Part shown: positions 23,975 through 62,194 of the stretch, piece after piece | How the letters are laid out: the number at the start of each line of letters is the position of its first letter | How positions within the stretch are numbered: position 1 is the first letter of the stretch | Origin: Flavisolibacter nicotianae | GTDB lineage: Bacteria > Bacteroidota > Bacteroidia > Chitinophagales > Chitinophagaceae | Length of the DNA stretch: 64,000 nucleotides | Reading direction: 5' to 3' | Assembly: GCF_003628535.1 (NCBI RefSeq) | Contig: NZ_RBCI01000007.1 | Span: 124,001 to 188,000 of the forward strand | Notes under the pieces: generated by a model | The model's database searches: none | The model's input: only the letters and a program-made list of their open reading frames with translations | Told to the model about the DNA's origin: nothing | Made by a program: the position numbers and the translations under genes

Positions 23975-24083
23975 TTACCGAATTGGGGTTATTTGTCACC
24001 TAAAATATTTTTTCTAAGGCTAAATTTCCGGGTACGATTCTTGCTAACTTATAAGCAGTTTTCATAGGGTACGGATTAAAAAC

Positions 24084-24117
24084 GGGCTGAGGTTTCTACC
24101 TTAGCCCTATTTTTTGT
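24084..24117 (+). terminator. Terminator-like hairpin with no protein gene in front of it
   Basis: A 10-bp stem with one G-U pair (24084-24093 with 24098-24107, GGGCTGAGGT), TTCT loop and a TATTTTTT tail. It could end a short untranslated transcript starting after 23980. Confidence 0.65.
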
Positions 24118-24343
24118 TATTTACGTGGGTTCTTTCGACACGAATTCAAATTTTCTCATTGCCCAAAAACGAAATTCTCCACTGAATTTACCGCTAATCG
24201 GCGCATGACGTTTGAAAATGCAGAACTTTTACCGATCAGTCAATTGAACGACCACGCAAAAACGTGACCGGACAAAATTTTCGATCATTCACTAGGACTT
24301 CAATAGAGGGTACTCCGAAACGAAAGCAGTCTGTTGCCCGAGC

Positions 24344-24357
24344 GTGATTTTAGTCAC
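24344..24357. promoter_or_regulatory. CRP-type operator GTGA-N6-TCAC, site 1 (in front of putative sRNA A)
   Basis: A perfect palindrome of the CRP class (GTGATTTTAGTCAC) lies in non-coding DNA before a roughly 200-nt segment ending in a terminator. A TTTG follows at 24360-24363 and ATCTTG at 24381-24386, which are weak promoter candidates. Confidence 0.65.
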
Positions 24358-24394
24358 GCTTTGTAAAGAAAATTAATATCATCTTGCACACAGG

Positions 24395-24587
24395 TTGCAG
24401 ATGGCAGTGAAAACCGGGTGCAATCGACATGTTCGACAAAAGAGGAGCCGGGATAGAAAGATTGGGAATGCAGTTTTCGATGAACGAAGGCACCGGTCGT
24501 GATGAGTGAATAAATCATACGACAAACTCGCTTACATACAAGCAGTTAGTTTTGGTTGCGCCCCTTGTTTCTACAGGGGGCTTCTTT
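24395..24587 (+). ncRNA. Putative small RNA A, CRP-site controlled
   Basis: No credible protein frame exists here. The segment follows operator site 1 (24344-24357) and ends in a terminator with a 9-bp stem (24560-24568 with 24573-24581), TTCT loop and T-rich tail. It contains ACGAAGGCACCG at 24484-24495, which recurs with one change in the next segment (24700-24711). The 5' end is a guess from the operator position. An alternative is a tiny peptide (ATG at 24480, 9 codons), which I consider less likely. Confidence 0.4.
24560..24587 (+). terminator. Terminator of putative small RNA A
   Basis: GCCCCTTGT / ACAGGGGGC stem (9 bp, one G-U), TTCT loop, then TTCTTTG. Confidence 0.65.
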
Positions 24588-24589
24588 GT

Positions 24590-24603
24590 GTGACAGTTGT
24601 CAC
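24590..24603. promoter_or_regulatory. CRP-type operator GTGA-N6-TCAC, site 2 (in front of putative sRNA B)
   Basis: Perfect palindrome GTGACAGTTGTCAC, directly after the terminator of sRNA A and upstream of a second terminator-bounded non-coding segment. Confidence 0.65.
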
Positions 24604-24669
24604 GGTTACGCCGGTTAACCTTTTATATTTTTTAATGAACAGCATGTAGTATATCGCCAATATAATTGA

Positions 24670-24804
24670 CTGGCGTTGGATTTAAAGAGCAGGACGTTGA
24701 CGAAAGCACCGAGAAGAATTTGAATTACCAGGATTGGATAATATACTGATGCGTGGTTTGGTTTAATGACGGCAGGCCCTCGATCGAGAGCCTGCTTTTA
24801 TTTT
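24670..24804 (+). ncRNA. Putative small RNA B, CRP-site controlled
   Basis: The segment between operator site 2 and the hairpin at 24772 has no credible protein frame. TATAATTG at 24661-24668 is one base away from the TAnnTTTG promoter element, suggesting a start near 24675. It shares the ACGAAAGCACCG motif (24700-24711) with sRNA A, and both have TTTGGTT shortly before the terminator. The boundaries are inferred; no known RNA family was recognised. Confidence 0.4.
24772..24804 (+). terminator. Terminator of putative small RNA B
   Basis: GCAGGCCCTC / GAGAGCCTGC stem (10 positions, one mismatch), GATC loop, then TTTTATTTT. Confidence 0.8.
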
Positions 24805-24946
24805 GGGTAAAATGATTTTTATAGGTGGGACCTTCCTGCTGGCTTAAACATTTTTATGTTATGTATGCACTGCTCCTGACGGAATTCTGTACGAATGAGC
24901 GAGTTCATTCCCCTTTTGGAGAAATCTTTCATGCGGCAGGCAAAAA

Positions 24947-25480
24947 CTAATGCGGCAGTTTCTCTCTCAAATAGCCGTAAACCCAGGTGCCGGCAATTGC
25001 ACTGGCAAGTACAACAGCAACCACGAAAAAGCCGGCGCCGATCTGCGCAAAAAGAGGACCGGGACAGGCGCCGGTCATGGCCCAGCCAAATCCGAAGATC
25101 AATCCACCGATAATCTGTCCTTTATTGAATTTTTTGGGATGAAACCGGACTGGCTCACCATCGATGGTCTTGAGCTTGTAGCGCTTGATCAGCCAGACAG
25201 AAATCATGGCAACCGCGATAGCCGTACCGATAACCCCGTACATGTGAAAACTTTGCAGGCGGAACATCTCCTGGATGCGAAACCACGAAATGACTTCGGC
25301 TTTTGTAAAGGCAATTCCAAAAATGATCCCAACAAACGCATATTTCAGGTTATCGTACCATTTGTGTTGTACCGCTGATTCGTTTACGCAGATGGTATCC
25401 AGCGTTCTGACTTCGTAGTCGGTGTCGGGAAGTGACACTTCTTTTACCGGTGCAGATTGAAATTTATTTAAAACACCCAT
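24947..25480 (-). CDS. YeeE/YedE family transporter half (second subunit)
   Basis: This 177-residue integral membrane protein has about four to five hydrophobic segments and the conserved cysteine motif GWAMTGACPGPLFAQIGAG. It is the C-terminal half of a split YeeE/YedE (TsuA-like, DUF6691) transporter; the N-terminal half is the gene just upstream (9-bp gap). Full-length YeeE/TsuA takes up thiosulfate using conserved cysteines that line the path, so the pair is predicted to move thiosulfate or another sulfur compound across the inner membrane. A soluble N-terminal extension of about 45 residues precedes the first membrane segment. Transcribed leftwards, probably from the promoter at 26.1 kb. 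Confidence 0.88.
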   Translation of the reverse strand: MGVLNKFQSAPVKEVSLPDTDYEVRTLDTICVNESAVQHKWYDNLKYAFVGIIFGIAFTKAEVISWFRIQEMFRLQSFHMYGVIGTAIAVAMISVWLIKRYKLKTIDGEPVRFHPKKFNKGQIIGGLIFGFGWAMTGACPGPLFAQIGAGFFVVAVVLASAIAGTWVYGYLREKLPH

Positions 25481-25489
25481 GTTTTTGCT

Positions 25490-26053
25490 TTACAATTTTA
25501 AAATGAAGGGGAGAATAAGGTTGGCCATGATAAAACCGCCCACCATAAACGAAGCCGTTGCGATCATGGATGGAACCTGCAGGTTACTGATGCCCATGAT
25601 GGCATGACCGCTGGTACAGCCGCCGGCATATCGTGTACCAAAACCTACCAAAAAGCCACCCACCACCAGCATGACGAATCCCCTTAATGTAAACAGGGCC
25701 GGGAAACTGAAGATTTCACGGGGCAGGAGTTTATCGTGATCCTGGATACCATAGGTTTTCAGTTCCGACAGGAGGGCAGGAGAGACCTTTACCGGTTCTG
25801 GTGTTGATAAAAACTGGGTCGCGATGATAGCGCCGACGAGGATGCCACCCACGAAAAACAAATTCCAGGCTTCTTTTTTCCAATCGTATTGGAAAAACTT
25901 GATGTTGGCGGGAAAACAGGCGGCACAAGCATGACGAAGGTTGGCTGAAATGCCAAACGATTTGTTTCCCAGCAAGAGCAACGCCGGTACGGTGAGGCCG
26001 ATGAGTGCTCCGGCCACATACCAGGACCAGGGTTGTCGTAAGAGTTCAAGCAT
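25490..26053 (-). CDS. YeeE/YedE family transporter half (first subunit)
   Basis: This 187-residue membrane protein has the conserved motif [20 protein letters not shown], in which the cysteine is the sulfur-binding residue of the YeeE/YedE fold, and further Cys near residue 43-46 ([10 protein letters not shown]). Together with the next gene it forms a split thiosulfate-type transporter. The start codon is 58 bp from the centre of a perfect GTGA-N6-TCAC site (26105-26118), and TAGATTTC lies between them as a promoter -7 candidate. Confidence 0.88.
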
Positions 26054-26104
26054 TGTCTGTCGATTTTTTATGGGTAAAATTGAAATCTATTCTTTTCTTA
26101 TCAC

Positions 26105-26118
26105 GTGACCTAAATCAC
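26105..26118. promoter_or_regulatory. CRP-type operator GTGA-N6-TCAC, site 3 (yeeE pair)
   Basis: Perfect palindrome GTGACCTAAATCAC, centre about 58 bp before the start of the first YeeE half. This distance fits activation from near -41 with a short leader. Confidence 0.75.
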
Positions 26119-26143
26119 GCCAACGAGAGTAAACGTAATTTAT

Positions 26144-27832
26144 TTAGTGAAAAGTGTAATCCACACCGGTTACCTGGGTTAACAGGTTTTGTGGTGCATC
26201 GAGTACTATCGCATTTTTTTCCGGTAAAGGGGCCACTGGCGAATGAATGGAAAGATATTCCTTTACCACCTCGTGTAAATGATAGGGCGTGTTTTCCGGT
26301 TCGGCAACATTTACCAGCCGGCACAGCATATTCGGGGGATCACCCTCCCGTTCACAGGCACAAATCGTGTACAGTTGCTCGTCTGCGACCGGTTTGTCAT
26401 CAATGGTCATGGATTGAATGCGCCTTCGCCTTTCATCGAACGCCCTAAAGCGAACCTTCATCCCCTTGAACTTGACGATCCAGCCACCTAGCCGCTGGGA
26501 TGCTTCCTTTGCGAAAACATTGTTTAATTCGGTTTCAAGCCAGGCTTTCAATTGTCGCCCTGAGATTTTACCTGTTCGAACACGGGAATCAACGGGCAGC
26601 ATGTCGTACAAAAAAGCCTCTGTGATCGGGATGTTCCCGGTGCTGTCTTTTTTGCTGCGCGGCGGGCAAAAGCGAAATCCATTTGAAAGAACAATATCTG
26701 TCCCCACCTTCCATTTCAATGCATCGATAATCAAGGTATCAATCGAGTTTTCCACGACAAAATAGCGGTACAACGGCACTTTGCTATAGCCAATTACGTT
26801 ATCCATCGATTGCCGGAACGGTTGCTCGGCTTCTTTAATGATCCGAACGAGTTCCTCGTCGGGCTGGAATTTCGACGGATCCACTTCGAGCAAAGAATAT
26901 TGTTCGTTGACAATCTTACCGTTTTCCACAAGCAAGTCGAGGCGCCCAACAAAAGAGCCGAACGCACCGGGTTCCACCACTTTTGCATACGTGCATTGAA
27001 TGGGTTTGCGCACCCGTTCATGTGTGTCGCCACCAAAAATATAATCGACGCCCCTGCATTCTTCTCTGTTCGCAAGTGCAATTTGCTGCGATAATCCCAA
27101 ATGCGAAAGGATGATCACCAATTGACATTGCTCCTGCTCACGGAGGACATTGATATAATAAGGAAGGTTCTCTTCCGGCCGGGTATACACAATGCCTTTG
27201 CTGTACGCAGGTGACTGGCGGATAGGTACCAGCGGATCCGTGTAACCGATAAAACCAATTTTCACACCGGCAGCACTCCAGGTTGTATAGGGAGGAAAGA
27301 TCAGTTCTCCTTTTTGACCACCGCCAAGATCGTGGTACATATTGGCGCAGATCTTCGGCGCATCCAACCCACCTAATAGCTTCTGCATGCCTTTCTTATA
27401 ATACACAACTTCCCAGTTGCCCGGCAGGTAAAGATTGTAGTCCATTGCATTTAAAACCGGTTGAAGGGCTTTGCCGGTCGTTTCCACACTTAGCATACTG
27501 CCCTGGAACATGTCGCCGGTATCGATGATAAACGTAGCCGGATTTTGTTGGCGAACCTTCTTAAAATACGTTGCGATGTGCGCATAGCCGCCAGTCTGGC
27601 GGAAAGCCATTTTGTCGTTTTCCCAAAACAATTCATCGTGCGGGTGCAACTGGCAATGCACATCGGTTGTTTGCAGCAAGGTGAGAACCTGCTGGCCTTT
27701 CCCCGGTTTGAACCCTGGTTCTGCTGTTGCAGTAGGACTGTTTTCGACCGGCAACAAGGACGAAAGGGGGTTAATGGTCAAACTCAGACCCGCTAGTGTC
27801 GAAAATTGCAGGAAATTTCTTCTGGATTGCAT
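26144..27832 (-). CDS. Tat-exported SoxB-like metallophosphatase / 5'-nucleotidase family protein
   Basis: This is a 562-residue protein. The start at 27832 gives a twin-arginine signal (MQSRRNFLQFSTLAGLSLTI); an upstream in-frame Met at 27886 only adds non-signal residues. The metallophosphatase domain shows QTTDVHCQLHPH, FIIDTGDMFQGS, YLPGNWEVVYY, IILSHLGLSQQ and FGGDTHERV. A 5'-nucleotidase C-terminal domain follows (VVENSIDTLIIDALKWKVGTD, SNGFRF). The GNWE in place of the GNHE of true nucleotidases is the SoxB-like variant, and the setting among sulfur genes supports sulfate-thiol (thiosulfate) hydrolase-like chemistry rather than nucleotide hydrolysis. No other Sox genes are present in the window. 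Confidence 0.8.
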   Translation of the reverse strand: MQSRRNFLQFSTLAGLSLTINPLSSLLPVENSPTATAEPGFKPGKGQQVLTLLQTTDVHCQLHPHDELFWENDKMAFRQTGGYAHIATYFKKVRQQNPATFIIDTGDMFQGSMLSVETTGKALQPVLNAMDYNLYLPGNWEVVYYKKGMQKLLGGLDAPKICANMYHDLGGGQKGELIFPPYTTWSAAGVKIGFIGYTDPLVPIRQSPAYSKGIVYTRPEENLPYYINVLREQEQCQLVIILSHLGLSQQIALANREECRGVDYIFGGDTHERVRKPIQCTYAKVVEPGAFGSFVGRLDLLVENGKIVNEQYSLLEVDPSKFQPDEELVRIIKEAEQPFRQSMDNVIGYSKVPLYRYFVVENSIDTLIIDALKWKVGTDIVLSNGFRFCPPRSKKDSTGNIPITEAFLYDMLPVDSRVRTGKISGRQLKAWLETELNNVFAKEASQRLGGWIVKFKGMKVRFRAFDERRRRIQSMTIDDKPVADEQLYTICACEREGDPPNMLCRLVNVAEPENTPYHLHEVVKEYLSIHSPVAPLPEKNAIVLDAPQNLLTQVTGVDYTFH

Positions 27833-27882
27833 AAAAAATGGTTTGCAAAAATGTTGACTGCATTTACCCTGACTGGCAATTT

Positions 27883-27975
27883 TCAATAGGCCAACGCATC
27901 ATCGGCCACCCAGTTTATATACTGCTTGTACGGCTTGCCATACGATGACTGGATAAAATAGTTTGCTCCCGACAT
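27883..27975 (-). CDS. Possible 30-residue open frame between the MBL-rhodanese and SoxB-like genes
   Basis: A short frame begins at 27975, 8 bases after the stop of the MBL-rhodanese gene, and ends before the SoxB-like gene. It encodes a Tyr-rich peptide starting MSGANYFIQSSYGKPYKQYI and ending ADDALAY. It may be a genuine small protein or the tail of a decayed gene. No homologue is known to me. Confidence 0.3.
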   Translation of the reverse strand: MSGANYFIQSSYGKPYKQYINWVADDALAY

Positions 27976-27983
27976 TTTGCTTT

Positions 27984-29405
27984 TTATTTTTTTACCAATG
28001 TTGATGGACAGACGTATGCCGTGACTGGCACAGTACCTGTTTCCTTGATGGCTTTGAATCCGCCTTTCACGTCAACCAGGTTGTGATACCCCCTTGCCCG
28101 AAGGATGGAGTTAAAGATCATGGAACGGTATCCACCGGCACAGTGCACATAATACGTCTGGCCTTTATCCAGCGCCGGCAAATGATCGTTGATGTTGTCA
28201 AGCGGTGTGCTGGACGCACCTTCTACATGCTCGCTGGTAAATTCACCGGGCTTGCGGACATCGAGAACCTGTATCGTTCCTTTCTCCCTTTTATCTGCAA
28301 ATTCTTCTGCAGTAACGGATGGAATATGATCCACTTCTTTGCCTGCATTTTTCCATGCAGCAAATCCGCCTTCCAGGAACCCGATCGTATAGTCGTAACC
28401 GACTCGTGCCAACCGGGTAATGACTTCCTCTTCCCGCCCTTTGTCGGTTACCAGTAATATTTGTTGCCTGATATCCGGAATTAAAGCGCCAACCCAGGGA
28501 GCGAAACTTCCATCGATTCCAATATTGATCGAATTGGGAATAAAGCCACTGGCAAAGGTTTGCGGGTCTCTTGTGTCAAGAATAATGGCACCAGTTTCGT
28601 TGGCCGCCGTTTCAAATGCCGCAGGCGAAAGTGCATGATTTCCGCGCCGCATAACGTCTGTTATGCTTTCGTAACCCTGTTTGTTCAGCATTACGTTGAG
28701 GGGAAAATAAGCGGGAGGTACAGCCAACCCTGCGGTGACCTCTTTGACAAATTCTTCTTTGGTCATATTGGCCCGCAGGGCGTAGTTCGTTTGCTTCTGG
28801 TGACCAAGTGTATCGGACGTTTCTTTGCTCATGTTTTTGCCGCAAGCGCTTCCGGCGCCGTGGGCCGGGTAAACAATAATGTCATCGGCCAGGGGCATGA
28901 TCTTGTTTCGGAGCGAATCGTAAAGCGTACCGGCCAGTTCTTGCTGCGTCATGTGGGCTGCCTTTTGTGCAAGGTCTGGCCGGCCTACATCGCCGATAAA
29001 CAATGTGTCACCGGAAAACAGTGCCACGTCTTTTCCCGCCTCGTCTTTCAGCAGGTAACTGGAACTTTCCATTGTATGGCCGGGAGTGTGCAGAACTTTA
29101 AACCTGACTTTTCCAATTTGAAACTCCTCGCCATCTTTTGCAATGATTGCGTCAAAGGAAGGATTGGCGTTAGGGCCATAGACTATCGGCGCACCCGTTT
29201 GCTTTGAAAGATCGAGATGACCGGATACAAAATCAGCATGGAAGTGGGTCTCAAAAACATATTTGATTCTTGCCTTATTGTTTTTTGCTTTTTGTATGTA
29301 TGGATCTACTTCCCGCAACGGATCGATCACAACGGCTTCGCCTTCGCTCTCTATATAATAGGCTCCCTGTGCAAGACAGCCTGTATAAATCTGTTCTATC
29401 TTCAT
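27984..29405 (-). CDS. MBL-fold persulfide dioxygenase-like protein with two C-terminal rhodanese domains
   Basis: This 473-residue cytoplasmic protein has an ETHE1/glyoxalase II-type metallo-beta-lactamase domain (about residues 1-245). Its motifs are FETHFHADFVSGH, HTPGHTMESSSYLL and FSGDTLFIGDVGRPDL. Two rhodanese domains follow. The first (about 265-365) has TDKGREEE where the active cysteine loop should be, so it appears catalytically dead; the second (about 370-465) has the active loop VHCAGGYRS. Such fusions oxidise glutathione persulfide to sulfite and transfer the sulfane sulfur. The gene is preceded by its own GTGA-N6-TCAC site, centred about 61 bp before the start. Confidence 0.9.
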   Translation of the reverse strand: MKIEQIYTGCLAQGAYYIESEGEAVVIDPLREVDPYIQKAKNNKARIKYVFETHFHADFVSGHLDLSKQTGAPIVYGPNANPSFDAIIAKDGEEFQIGKVRFKVLHTPGHTMESSSYLLKDEAGKDVALFSGDTLFIGDVGRPDLAQKAAHMTQQELAGTLYDSLRNKIMPLADDIIVYPAHGAGSACGKNMSKETSDTLGHQKQTNYALRANMTKEEFVKEVTAGLAVPPAYFPLNVMLNKQGYESITDVMRRGNHALSPAAFETAANETGAIILDTRDPQTFASGFIPNSINIGIDGSFAPWVGALIPDIRQQILLVTDKGREEEVITRLARVGYDYTIGFLEGGFAAWKNAGKEVDHIPSVTAEEFADKREKGTIQVLDVRKPGEFTSEHVEGASSTPLDNINDHLPALDKGQTYYVHCAGGYRSMIFNSILRARGYHNLVDVKGGFKAIKETGTVPVTAYVCPSTLVKK

Positions 29406-29459
29406 TGTTGTGTATTGATGTTTGAAATATAAATTTCGCCCTGTCGGACGATATTGAAC

Positions 29460-29473
29460 GTGACTGCGATCAC
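29460..29473. promoter_or_regulatory. CRP-type operator GTGA-N6-TCAC, site 4 (MBL-rhodanese gene)
   Basis: Perfect palindrome GTGACTGCGATCAC in the 82-bp gap between the TauE/SafE stop and the MBL-rhodanese start. Centre about 61 bp before that start, with TATATTTC between as a -7 candidate. Confidence 0.75.
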
Positions 29474-29487
29474 AGTTATCACCAGGT

Positions 29488-30285
29488 TTATTTTAAGATC
29501 GTTTCCTTTAAAATAATATAAACACCCATCACCAGCACAAACCAACCAAATCCTTTCTTCAGCCTCTCGCCCTGGATCTTTTTGCCCAGAGCGCCGCCAA
29601 TGAAAATTCCCGTAATGGCAATGAGCGTTACTTTCAGTAAGAAGAACCAATCCATCGAAAAATGGCCCAGGTCGCCGGTAAAGCCAATGAGAGAATTCAA
29701 AGCGATGATCATCAGCGATGTGCCGATTGCCCGTTTCATGGGAAGTTTGAGCAGTAAAACGAGGGCCGGGATCAGCAAAAAACCGCCACCGGCACCAAGC
29801 AAACCGGTTACCAGTCCGATCGCTACGCCATAAACAACCAGCTTGTCAAACCGGATGCTGTTCTTGCTTTCTTCATCTTCGGCCTGCACATTTTTGTTGC
29901 GGATCATGCTGATGGAAGCAATCAGCATCAACAGGGCGAAAAGCACCATGGTCAGCAGGGATTCGGTGACAGGCACACCGCCAATCGTCACAATGGTTTT
30001 CGGGATTGCCGGCACGAGAAACTTACGGGTAAGAAAAACAGTCACGATAGAAGAAGCACCGAACAAAAGAGCTGCTTTCATATTCACCAAACCCCTTCGA
30101 AGGTTGTTAAAAGCACCAACCAGGCTGGTGGAACCGACAACAAAGAGAGAGTAGGACGTTGCAAGCAGCGGCTGGAGGCCAAACAAATAGACCATCACTG
30201 GAACGGTTAAGATAGACCCGCCGCCACCAATAAGGCCAAGTGAGATCCCGATAAGGAGAGATGCAATGTATCCGATAGTTTCCAT
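29488..30285 (-). CDS. TauE/SafE family permease (predicted sulfite/organosulfonate exporter)
   Basis: This is a 265-residue integral membrane protein with about eight hydrophobic segments in two repeats. Each repeat begins with a glycine-rich motif (GLIGGGGSILTVPVMVYLFG near the N terminus and LLGAGGGFLLIPALVLLL near residue 165), which is the TauE/SafE signature. Beside a persulfide dioxygenase-like enzyme it would export the sulfite produced. A GTGA-N6-TCAC site is centred about 57 bp before the start codon. Transcribed in the same direction as the regulator gene, which ends about 60 bp upstream of its start. Confidence 0.9.
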   Translation of the reverse strand: METIGYIASLLIGISLGLIGGGGSILTVPVMVYLFGLQPLLATSYSLFVVGSTSLVGAFNNLRRGLVNMKAALLFGASSIVTVFLTRKFLVPAIPKTIVTIGGVPVTESLLTMVLFALLMLIASISMIRNKNVQAEDEESKNSIRFDKLVVYGVAIGLVTGLLGAGGGFLLIPALVLLLKLPMKRAIGTSLMIIALNSLIGFTGDLGHFSMDWFFLLKVTLIAITGIFIGGALGKKIQGERLKKGFGWFVLVMGVYIILKETILK

Positions 30286-30335
30286 GTATGCTGCTTGTTT
30301 TCATGCAAAGCTGCGACAAACGAAATTCATCTTTC

Positions 30336-30349
30336 GTGATGTTGGTCAC
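30336..30349. promoter_or_regulatory. CRP-type operator GTGA-N6-TCAC, site 5 (tauE/safE gene)
   Basis: Perfect palindrome GTGATGTTGGTCAC overlapping the last codon of the Crp/Fnr gene. Centre about 57 bp before the permease start; CAGCTTTG lies between as a -7 candidate. Confidence 0.75.
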
Positions 30350-30993
30350 GACAGCGCTTTTTCCAAATTCAGCAATTCCACATGGTTGCCGTTCGTTTTT
30401 ACAAGGCCTCTTTCGGCCAGCTTTTTCATGAGGCGGGAAATGACTTCTCGGGATGAATTAAGATCCTGTGCAATTTCTGTGAACGACACATCAATGATGT
30501 TGGTATGAAAGGTCTCCTGGTGACGCTTCAGGTAAAAAACCAATCGTTCGTCCATGTTCCGGAAAGCAATATGGTCAATCGTTTGCAGCAATTCGTCAAA
30601 GCGTTCCCGATAAGAACCAACGGCAAACTGCGCCCAGCTTTTGTATTTACCCATCCACGCATCAACATATTGCACGGGAATACCCAGGACCGTAGACGGC
30701 ACAACGGCTTTTGCCATCAGACCGCTGGTTTCCTGGCCCAATGCGCAAACAAGCGAAATGGCGCATGCCTTGCCGGCATCCAGGTAGTACATAAAAAACT
30801 CATTACCCTGGTTGTCTTCCCGGTAAATCTTGATCAGCCCGTCCAGCACGAGCAAGGCCGAACGAATATTCTGGCCGGTCCGCATCAGGATTTCATCTTC
30901 TTTTAGCGATTTGATGTCGGCTACCCTGACAATCTCTTCGATCAGTTCTTTTTCCAGGCTGGGAAAATGTGACGAAAGTTCTTTTTCTGTCAT
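30346..30993 (-). CDS. Crp/Fnr family transcriptional regulator of the sulfur cluster
   Basis: This is a 215-residue regulator from Met 30993 (MTEKELSSHFPSLE), the usual length; upstream in-frame Mets extend to 31116 but add non-conserved residues. The cyclic-nucleotide-binding-type beta-roll is N-terminal (DEILMRTGQNIRSALLVLDG, YREDNQGNEFFMYYL) and the winged helix-turn-helix C-terminal (FTEIAQDLNSSREVISRLMK). The recognition helix SREVISR keeps the Arg, Glu and Arg (about residues 182, 183, 187) equivalent to R180, E181 and R185 of E. coli CRP that read GTGA. There is no FNR-type N-terminal cysteine cluster; Cys residues near the beta-roll (GKACAISLVCAL) could sense persulfide or redox state. 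It probably controls the five palindromes at 24.3-30.3 kb. Confidence 0.88.
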   Translation of the reverse strand: MTEKELSSHFPSLEKELIEEIVRVADIKSLKEDEILMRTGQNIRSALLVLDGLIKIYREDNQGNEFFMYYLDAGKACAISLVCALGQETSGLMAKAVVPSTVLGIPVQYVDAWMGKYKSWAQFAVGSYRERFDELLQTIDHIAFRNMDERLVFYLKRHQETFHTNIIDVSFTEIAQDLNSSREVISRLMKKLAERGLVKTNGNHVELLNLEKALS

Positions 30994-60643: not shown

Positions 60644-62194
60644 ATGAAACGATCAGTCATCATCTTTTTTTTGTGCTTGTTCTTTCACTCCCTGGAGGCG
60701 CAGTCATGGTACAACGTGCTTTCCTACGGCGCCAAAAATGACAGCAGCAAACTGTCCACCACCGCCATTGCGGCCGCTATCAATGCCGCGGCAAAAAAAG
60801 GCGGCGGCACGGTTTATTTTCCCGCGGGAAAATATCTCACGGGCCCCATTCACCTGAAAAGCAACATCACCATTTATATCGACGCCGGTGCGGAACTGCA
60901 CTTCAGCGACAATTTTGATCACTACATGCCCTTTGTGGAAAGCCGGTTTGAAGGGGTGGATGTCAAAAGTTTTTCACCGCTTTTTTATGCGTACAAGGCC
61001 GAAAACATTTCCATCATTGGCCGTGGACTGATCAATGGCCACGGTAAAAAATGGTGGGATGTAGCGGAAGGCTACAAGGAAGACCAGCCTAAAACAAAAT
61101 GGCAGCTTGCCTTTGAAGCGGCCAACAAGGACATGATCCAGCCCGATGACCTGGGACAGATCAAAAAAGGATTTCTTCGGCCGCCCTTCATTCAACCGAT
61201 GTTTTGCAAAAACGTCCTGGTGCAGGGCATCACGATTGTCAACTCGCCGTTCTGGACCGTGAACCCCGAGTTCTGTGAAAATGTCACGGTGGAAGGCGTT
61301 ACCATCAACAACCCGCATTCGCCGAACACGGATGGGATCAACCCGGAAAGCTGCAAGTATGTGCACATTACCAACTGTCACATCAGCGTGGGCGATGATT
61401 GCATTACGATCAAGTCGGGCAAGGATCTTCCGGGTCGGACAAAGGCGGCGCCGGCCGAGAATTACACCATCACCAACTGCACGATGCTGTCGGGGCACGG
61501 CGGCGTGGTGATCGGCAGCGAAATGAGCGGCGATGTGAAAAAGATCACCATCTCCAACTGTGTGTTTGACGGCACCGACAGGGGGATCCGCATCAAAACG
61601 GCAAGGGGCCGAGGCGGTGTGGTGGAAGACATCCGAGTGAGCAATATCGTGATGAAAAACATCCGGCAACAGGCCATTGTGCTGGACATGCAATACGCCA
61701 AAACGGCACCGGAGCCCGTATCGGAGCGGACGCCTCGGTTTCGCAACATCCACCTGAGCGGCATCACGGCGAAGACGGCACAGGCCATTTACATCAACGG
61801 GCTGGCAGAAATGCCGGTGGAGGACATCAGCTTCAGCGATATCCAGTTTGAGGCACAAACCGGCGTTGTCATCAAGGAAGCAACGAACATCGAGTTTCAC
61901 AATGTGCGCATCACGACCAACGAAGGCGCTTCGCTGGCGGCAGAAAATGTAAGTGACCTGACCATCGATGGCGTGAAAACCCTGCAGCCGCTTGCCGGCA
62001 AGCCAACCATTGACCTGAACAATGTGCAGAACGTGTTTCTCTACAACTGCAACCCGGTAAAGGAAACTCCCGTGTTTTTGCAGGTGAGGGGAGAGCGGTC
62101 GAAGGGCATTGTGCTGAAAGGCAACAATTTTGCCGGTGCGGTAAAACCGGTGGTGCAGGAAGGCAGCGTGGCGGAAACCATCGCAGTGAATTAA
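60644..62194 (+). CDS. GH28 polygalacturonase-family enzyme
   Basis: 516 residues, signal peptide ending LEAQ. Right-handed beta-helix with the pectate-lyase-like start YNVLSYGAKNDSSKLSTTAI and the GH28 signature sites PNTDGINPES, VGDDCITIKSG, SGHGGVVIGSEMSG and RGIRIKTARGRGG. The Asp residues in NTDG and GDD are the catalytic set and are present. It hydrolyses polygalacturonan or rhamnogalacturonan oligomers, probably exo-acting in the periplasm like other Bacteroidota GH28 enzymes. Confidence 0.95.
   Translation: MKRSVIIFFLCLFFHSLEAQSWYNVLSYGAKNDSSKLSTTAIAAAINAAAKKGGGTVYFPAGKYLTGPIHLKSNITIYIDAGAELHFSDNFDHYMPFVESRFEGVDVKSFSPLFYAYKAENISIIGRGLINGHGKKWWDVAEGYKEDQPKTKWQLAFEAANKDMIQPDDLGQIKKGFLRPPFIQPMFCKNVLVQGITIVNSPFWTVNPEFCENVTVEGVTINNPHSPNTDGINPESCKYVHITNCHISVGDDCITIKSGKDLPGRTKAAPAENYTITNCTMLSGHGGVVIGSEMSGDVKKITISNCVFDGTDRGIRIKTARGRGGVVEDIRVSNIVMKNIRQQAIVLDMQYAKTAPEPVSERTPRFRNIHLSGITAKTAQAIYINGLAEMPVEDISFSDIQFEAQTGVVIKEATNIEFHNVRITTNEGASLAAENVSDLTIDGVKTLQPLAGKPTIDLNNVQNVFLYNCNPVKETPVFLQVRGERSKGIVLKGNNFAGAVKPVVQEGSVAETIAVN

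Follow-up and report, generated by a model that had tools for sequence, protein, structure and literature searches.

A stretch of 64,000 nucleotides of Flavisolibacter nicotianae (contig NZ_RBCI01000007.1, positions 124,001 to 188,000), called the window in this work, contains a cluster of sulfur genes in which a Crp/Fnr-type regulator, five palindromic operators and two candidate small RNAs (sRNAs) are found together, between positions 24344 and 30993. The regulator, here named REG, is encoded on the minus strand (30346..30993; ATG at 30993, stop codon at 30346) and contains the Pfam domains HTH_Crp_2 and cNMP_binding over their cut-offs. Its membership of the Crp/Fnr superfamily is given by PF00027 (30.9 bits, cut-off 27.5) and PF13545 (38.7 bits, cut-off 27). 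The recognition helix is SSREVISRLMKK, which confirms the SREVISR read by the original prediction, a note made from this DNA without database searches.

Operators and genes of the sulfur cluster

The five GTGA-N6-TCAC palindromes described in that note (24344, 24590, 26105, 29460 and 30336) are all present at those coordinates. In total, the GTGANNNNNNTCAC palindrome has six copies in the window, five of them within the cluster; the sixth (61535-61548) lies outside it and does not fit the sharper motif described below. Dinucleotide shuffles of the window (n=100) gave a mean of 0.81 palindromes and a maximum of 3. At the level of the whole genome (6.09 Mb, 70 contigs) GTGA-N6-TCAC is by itself weakly selective, with 83 places versus 44 for the reversed pattern; five copies within 6.65 kb are selective. 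The 78 of the 83 places that lie elsewhere in the genome set a background density at which 0.085 sites would be expected in that length, and the Poisson chance of finding at least five is approximately 3.5e-8. All five cluster operators fit a sharper motif, GTGAYNNNNRTCAC (GTGAYN4RTCAC), in which a pyrimidine and a purine flank the half-sites, and which is found at 27 places in the genome against 8 for the reversed control.

Each operator is accompanied by a box resembling YAnnTTTG at an offset of 22 nt. The operator upstream of tauE, GTGATGTTGGTCAC (30336..30349), overlaps the stop codon of REG, and with its minus strand box CAGCTTTG it is an exact match to the pattern operator+22+YAnnTTTG. 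The operator GTGACTGCGATCAC (29460..29473) lies upstream of a gene for a metallo-beta-lactamase (MBL) and rhodanese protein and has the box GAAATTTA (2 mismatches), and GTGACCTAAATCAC (26105..26118) lies upstream of a yeeE pair and has the box CAATTTTA (1 mismatch). At these three sites the operator centres are 57-62 nt upstream of the start codons. The other two operators are gene-less and sit in the interval 23975-24946, where no open reading frame (ORF) of at least 80 amino acids is listed: GTGACAGTTGTCAC (24590..24603), with the box TATTTTTT on the plus strand (24626-24633, 1 mismatch) and no box at offset 22 on the minus strand, and GTGATTTTAGTCAC (24344..24357), with the box CATCTTGC on the plus strand (24380-24387, 2 mismatches).

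The structural genes are encoded on the minus strand. The product of tauE (29488..30285) is a TauE/SafE-family sulfite/sulfur exporter (Pfam TauE, 143.5 bits). The next gene (27984..29405) encodes the MBL fold and two rhodanese domains in one chain according to Pfam, with end-to-end sequence matches to the PDB entries 3tp9 (3.2e-72) and 3r2u (7.4e-60); we take this architecture to be that of a CstB-like persulfide dioxygenase-rhodanese. The yeeE pair encodes two half-proteins of the YeeE/YedE thiosulfate/sulfur transporter family, the first (25490..26053) with Pfam Sulf_transp and the second (24947..25480) with Sulf_transp and DUF6691; as a TsuA thiosulfate transporter they score 38.2 and 26.1 bits, respectively, against a cut-off of 400 (NF052577). 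The remaining gene (26144..27886) encodes a metallophosphoesterase/5'-nucleotidase family protein by Pfam, which likely starts at ATG 27832 with an RR signal. It reaches 236.6 bits in TIGR04486, whose cut-off is 550, and is SoxB-like only.

Extent of the regulon and promoter geometry

By our own ORF calls, the 27 genomic places of GTGAYN4RTCAC are divided into 11 intergenic copies and 16 inside ORFs. Sulfur or thiol genes adjoin nine of the 11 intergenic copies, five of which form the window cluster. On contig C35 there are operators before a second MBL-rhodanese gene (C35:190699) and before a flavin adenine dinucleotide oxidoreductase (C35:192594), which Pfam itself names only Pyr_redox_2 and which we read as SQR-like; on contig C69 one copy is located between a third MBL-rhodanese gene and a major facilitator superfamily gene (C69:11938) and another before a thioredoxin-like pair (C69:14632). 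All nine of these sites have the offset-22 box with at most 2 mismatches and in a plausible direction. The other two intergenic copies precede an HPF gene, with the box on the strand pointing away from it, and YceI (next to a Crp paralog), with no box; given this orientation and absence, neither was counted as a member. The genome-wide motif scan, which the original prediction had named as the test able to refute it, thus favours the regulon. The further claim that the regulon is self-contained has to be abandoned, because operators are also found at the sulfur and thiol genes of C35 and C69. The regulon is real, its regulator was correctly chosen, and it is larger than was first thought.

The promoters were compared in 83 site-gene rows, each read from operator to gene, which came from the window and from 66 loci of relatives or of this genome. 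In 53 of the rows a box agreeing with TAnnTTTG at five or all six of its fixed positions begins at an offset of exactly 22 nt from the operator; no other offset reaches more than two rows, and a TTG at the usual -33 place is not conserved. The start site was placed by means of the Bacteroidota -7 consensus, and the operator centre would then lie about 41.5 bp upstream of it; the fixed operator-box spacing together with the lack of a conserved -33 element points to the geometry of a class II activator. Used as one pattern, operator+22+YAnnTTTG was found in 50 of 147 family genomes (95 listed places versus 4 for the reversed control), and in 80 named loci GTGAYN4RTCAC counted 41 versus 2 when reversed.

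The whole is best explained, and in our opinion with good probability, by REG being the dedicated activator of a reactive-sulfur regulon, with an operator code set by its recognition helix and with the sRNAs included. REG would serve genes for the handling of sulfide, persulfide and thiosulfate. A REG dimer, probably activated through Cys77 and Cys83 by persulfide-type sulfur, would bind GTGAYNNNNRTCAC centred about 41.5 bp before the start site, where it would replace the missing -33 element and recruit the main sigma factor to the YAnnTTTG -7 box, i.e. class II activation. Its targets would be tauE, the CstB-like enzyme and the yeeE pair and, at a distance, the further MBL-rhodanese genes, the SQR-like gene and the thioredoxin pair. 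The motif, its conservation and spacing, the concordance of residue and base and the content of the regulon are properties of the sequences compared; from them the binding of REG, the activation, the inducer and the transcription of the sRNAs are predicted. That sulfur stress is the signal we infer from gene content only. The predicted regulon comes with start-site positions that can be checked by ordinary RNA-seq.

Gene-less operators and a conserved RNA module

The original prediction also gave REG sRNA targets. Part of this stands: both gene-less operators have a downstream plus strand terminator and a -7-like box (weak for 24344). The tandem arrangement, on the other hand, occurs in no other locus examined, a 33-amino acid peptide is possible, and expression is a prediction. 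Candidate sRNA 1 (24392..24589, plus strand, ~198 nt) ends with a terminator at 24560-24581, and candidate sRNA 2 (24638..24804, plus strand, ~167 nt) with a hairpin at 24772-24795 (z -3.74) and a T-rich tail; both starts were estimated from the operator geometry. Two tandem sRNAs driven by the gene-less operators are a plausible prediction: REG would also drive the RNAs 24392-24589 and 24638-24804, the first bearing the 3' module of a family-wide RNA.

This module (24528..24589, plus strand, 62 nt, 74.9 bits) forms the 3' end of sRNA 1 and consists of AAGCAGTTAGTTTTGGTTGCG and a covarying terminator stem. In the alignment of 21 copies the AAGCAGTTAGTTTTGG core does not vary, and 4 pairs of the stem show compensatory changes. 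An RNA model constructed from these copies has 24 matches in this genome and matches with E <=0.01 in 49 of 60 family genomes (42 of the 60 below 1e-12 and 7 with weak matches only), some of which supplied training copies. The 20-nt core, allowing at most one mismatch, is present in 7 of 296 genomes of the phylum, all 7 belonging to the same family. Copies are located at C1:495110, C35:220522, C69:133364, C15:1003 and other places, and in the loci L155-L174 and L337-L366, several with a second AAGCAGTCAATTTT repeat. Upstream of other copies a sigma-54-like TGGCA...TTTGC was detected in 11 of 37 by a strict pattern and in more by eye. A search of 4227 Rfam families, at gathering and permissive thresholds, gave sub-threshold matches only for the sRNA 1 module, so that a conserved RNA module of this bacterial family is reported by no Rfam model. 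The RNA model has a weak second match in the window at 24041..24115 (plus strand, 22.4 bits, E 0.0015 for 64 kb), which ends in a terminator-like hairpin at 24084-24107. This match has no GTGAYN4RTCAC operator of its own, the first gene-less operator being ~230 nt further downstream.

The most probable alternative is that the gene-less operators drive a short mRNA for the 33-amino acid peptide, or are relics of lost genes, with no regulatory RNAs involved. Candidate sRNA 1 could indeed encode such a peptide (24401-24502), the ORF beginning ~9 nt past the estimated start, and the whole-transcript folds are unremarkable (z -1.77 for sRNA 1 and -1.39 for sRNA 2). Likewise, the search for module targets near the start codons of 180 ORFs (window and own-genome loci) did no better than its control, with 16 seven-mer matches versus 32 for the reversed sequence. 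Two gene-less tandem operators with terminators were found in none of the 63 relatives' loci and eight further places read, so the arrangement looks species-specific; the 83 operators of those 63 loci were tagged as gene-upstream (70), inside ORFs (7) or orphan (6). The ORF tags were assigned mechanically, and some operators tagged as orphan (L114, L116) clearly stand in front of tauE or rhodanese genes. Against this explanation stand the plus strand -7-like box at the regular offset and the strong end hairpin of both gene-less operators, and the conserved module with its covarying stem in which the first transcript ends. We regard the peptide or relic as possible, at well under an even chance.

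Residue 183, a proposed sensor and related systems

The most interesting outcome of the analysis is the operator code, in which residue 183 of the regulator and the operator half-site vary together. By alignment register this position is E181 of CRP, which is one of the contact residues R180, E181 and R185 according to the accessible text of PMC1274295. Of 147 aligned regulators, 84 carry Glu at this position and 63 carry Val. When the 256 possible half-sites with a box at offset 22 were scanned, GTGA was at the top in the 84 Glu loci (51, next 2) and GTAA in the 63 Val loci (56, next 3), and this first set contains 54 Glu-GTGA loci, 49 Val-GTAA loci, 44 without a site and zero crossings. Sixty further loci from other families and paralog groups, hand-picked for spread over families, raised the sample to 207 besides the window: 62 Glu-GTGA, 65 Val-GTAA, 3 Glu-GTAA, one Val locus with both sites and 76 without a strict site, that is 127 concordant, 3 discordant and 1 both. 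Some of them are the same species from two collections, and removal of identical regulator cores left 200 loci, in which the pattern is unchanged: 62 are Glu-GTGA, 62 Val-GTAA and 3 Glu-GTAA, 1 has both sites, and 34 Glu, 37 Val and 1 Ala loci are without a strict site. Over 208 rows the residue is Glu or Val, with one Ala. Among the 38 Glu loci that lack a strict site, 26 have an operator with one mismatch together with the box (control 3). Glu183 would read the G:C pair at the third position of GTGA, and regulators with Val use GTAA; it is the change that would be expected from the known CRP contacts. The conserved sites in orthologous loci, the fixed spacing to the promoter box and this concordance bear out the proposal that regulator and sites belong together.

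The concordance could also be due to shared ancestry, through one or two old splits, instead of a causal code. In a tree built without the helix columns, the first set requires the residue to change 4 times and the operator 3 times, with 2 independent pairs on supported branches; for the larger set these numbers are 8 and 5, respectively. The scarcity of independent pairs (2-3 on starred branches) and the dominance of Glu in Chitinophagaceae and of Val elsewhere agree with common descent. Nevertheless, in the larger set the operator changes along with the residue in 2.5 of the independent switches on average and contrary to it in 0, L137 and L143, two Glu/GTGA rows, fall within Val/GTAA rows, and further Glu/GTGA loci (L393-L395, L401, L404, L408, L417, L427) are, judged by identity, mostly not part of the main Glu clade. 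In addition, a single base pair changes while the geometry stays constant, and the change matches the CRP contacts R180, E181 and R185 in the accessible text of PMC1274295. Ancestry as the whole explanation is therefore considered improbable.

As to a possible sensor, all 208 of 208 aligned rows have Cys77 and 180 of 208 have Cys83, and both residues are located in a loop where the AlphaFold2 model is uncertain (residues 80-86 <50 in pLDDT, the predicted local distance difference test; mean 83.9). This loop presumably corresponds to the cyclic AMP phosphate-binding cassette of CRP, and a persulfide or polysulfide thiol switch through Cys77 and Cys83 is a natural guess. The top PDB match of the model in Foldseek is 3dv8 (E 2.4e-15). 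The NCBIfam CRP equivalog (38.6 bits, cut-off 266) does not support a cyclic AMP-CRP, nor the Fnr subfamily (29.8 bits versus 228) an FNR; FNR carries four Cys for its Fe-S cluster, and REG has only Cys77 and Cys83 in 215 amino acids.

A third explanation makes REG a repressor, released from DNA on modification by sulfur species like CstR, BigR and SqrR. Known thiol-based sulfur regulators of the ArsR/CsoR kind are indeed repressors; the operators of REG, in contrast, stand at a constant distance ahead of the -7 box and do not overlap it at variable positions, and there is no conserved -33 element, which is what an activator needs, so that we find repression quite unlikely. This genome has 14 cNMP_binding proteins, and a pattern search found R-E-xxx-R only in REG and in L432 (also L017, contig C4:72824), a second Crp-like protein with the helix SRETLSR that adjoins the GTGAYN4RTCAC site upstream of yceI, without an offset-22 box. 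That such a paralog binds the sites, the neighbourhood of REG being coincidental, is the least probable alternative despite the R-E-xxx-R and yceI site of L432, given that the operator class tracks the residue of the REG ortholog in the same locus, genes linked to REG have such sites beside them in many genomes and no offset-22 box accompanies the yceI site.

Several findings weigh against REG as the dedicated activator with a helix-set code. A strict site is missing from 37 of the 103 Val loci and from 38 of the 103 Glu loci; the Glu loci L409, L410 and L420 carry a GTAA site and the Val locus L385 both kinds; and 13 proteins with an ARV helix show no strict site and lack Cys83. The larger set holds only 3 independent Glu/Val pairs on supported branches (6 on all), and no sign test can reach 0.05 because the independent switches are few. 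Besides, 16 of the 27 genomic places fall inside ORFs, the box of operator 24344 has 2 mismatches, L432 shares the R-E-xxx-R pattern, and the cysteine-sensor step comes from conservation alone. One of the loci L409, L410 and L420 also has a hybrid GTAA/TCAC site, and these may be exceptions or intermediate states. The ARV-helix regulators (13 loci including L390, L391, L396, L398, L400, L402, L403, L405, L407 and L415), in whose loci neither a GTGA nor a GTAA operator was seen, keep Cys77, have Gly at 83 and 84 and are probably a separate regulator group.

Compared with E. coli CRP, REG is alike in fold, domains, the R180/E181/R185 residues, GTGA-N6-TCAC and the inferred -41.5 position (TGTGA half-site, class II), but it differs in the invariant Cys77 and usual Cys83 of the effector loop, the sulfur regulon and the Bacteroidota -7 box. 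The principle is less novel than had been claimed. HcpR, a Crp/Fnr regulator predicted by comparative genomics (Rodionov 2004, PMC545781; 2005, PMC1274295), is an earlier case of a CRP-motif regulon with sulfur genes: the accessible text of these papers gives it CRP-like TGTGA sites in Desulfovibrio, sulfur genes included. A correlation of residues 180/181 with the operator is also reported in the accessible text of PMC1274295; one case is HcpR2, where Glu is replaced by Pro and the site is GTAACnnnnGTTAC, which equals the Val-type site found here. As far as the same texts go, HcpR controls hcp/frdX and nitrosative stress, and HcpR2 has Pro, Ser or Gln at 181, whereas REG lies with tauE, MBL-rhodanese and yeeE genes and has Glu or Val; no hcp gene was found among the seven ORFs scanned with Pfam, a genome-wide hcp search not having been made. 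As far as literature searches show, the Val case within a sulfur regulon is the new part, and they revealed no dedicated Crp/Fnr regulator described for sulfide or persulfide control in Bacteroidota.

Tentatively, and at somewhat less than an even chance, we propose a phylum-wide thiol-sensing Crp/Fnr activator of sulfide detoxification with repeated GTGA/GTAA switching by a single Glu/Val change, the natural counterpart of the specificity change engineered at E181 of CRP. In the species of the window its regulon would also have taken in one member of a multi-copy sRNA family of Chitinophagaceae that is undescribed, other copies of which are often behind sigma-54-type promoters. The regulator-operator pairs described here are a natural series for studying joint specificity change while the regulon stays working.

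In Staphylococcus, the CstR-cstAB/sqr operon (persulfide dioxygenase-rhodanese fusion, TauE, SQR) does the same job under CstR, a CsoR-family repressor, and differs from REG, which is of the Crp/Fnr type and has activator geometry. The sRNA FnrS of E. coli is under FNR, likewise a Crp/Fnr-family activator; signal, RNA and phylum differ, and the RNA is here a predicted one. The same gene cluster is found in Flavobacteriaceae and others (80 records, named loci), with regulators ~40% identical and mostly without GTGA sites, while among named organisms Cnuella takakiae (regulator 80%) and Flavisolibacter species come closest, which points to a bacterium of the Chitinophagaceae.

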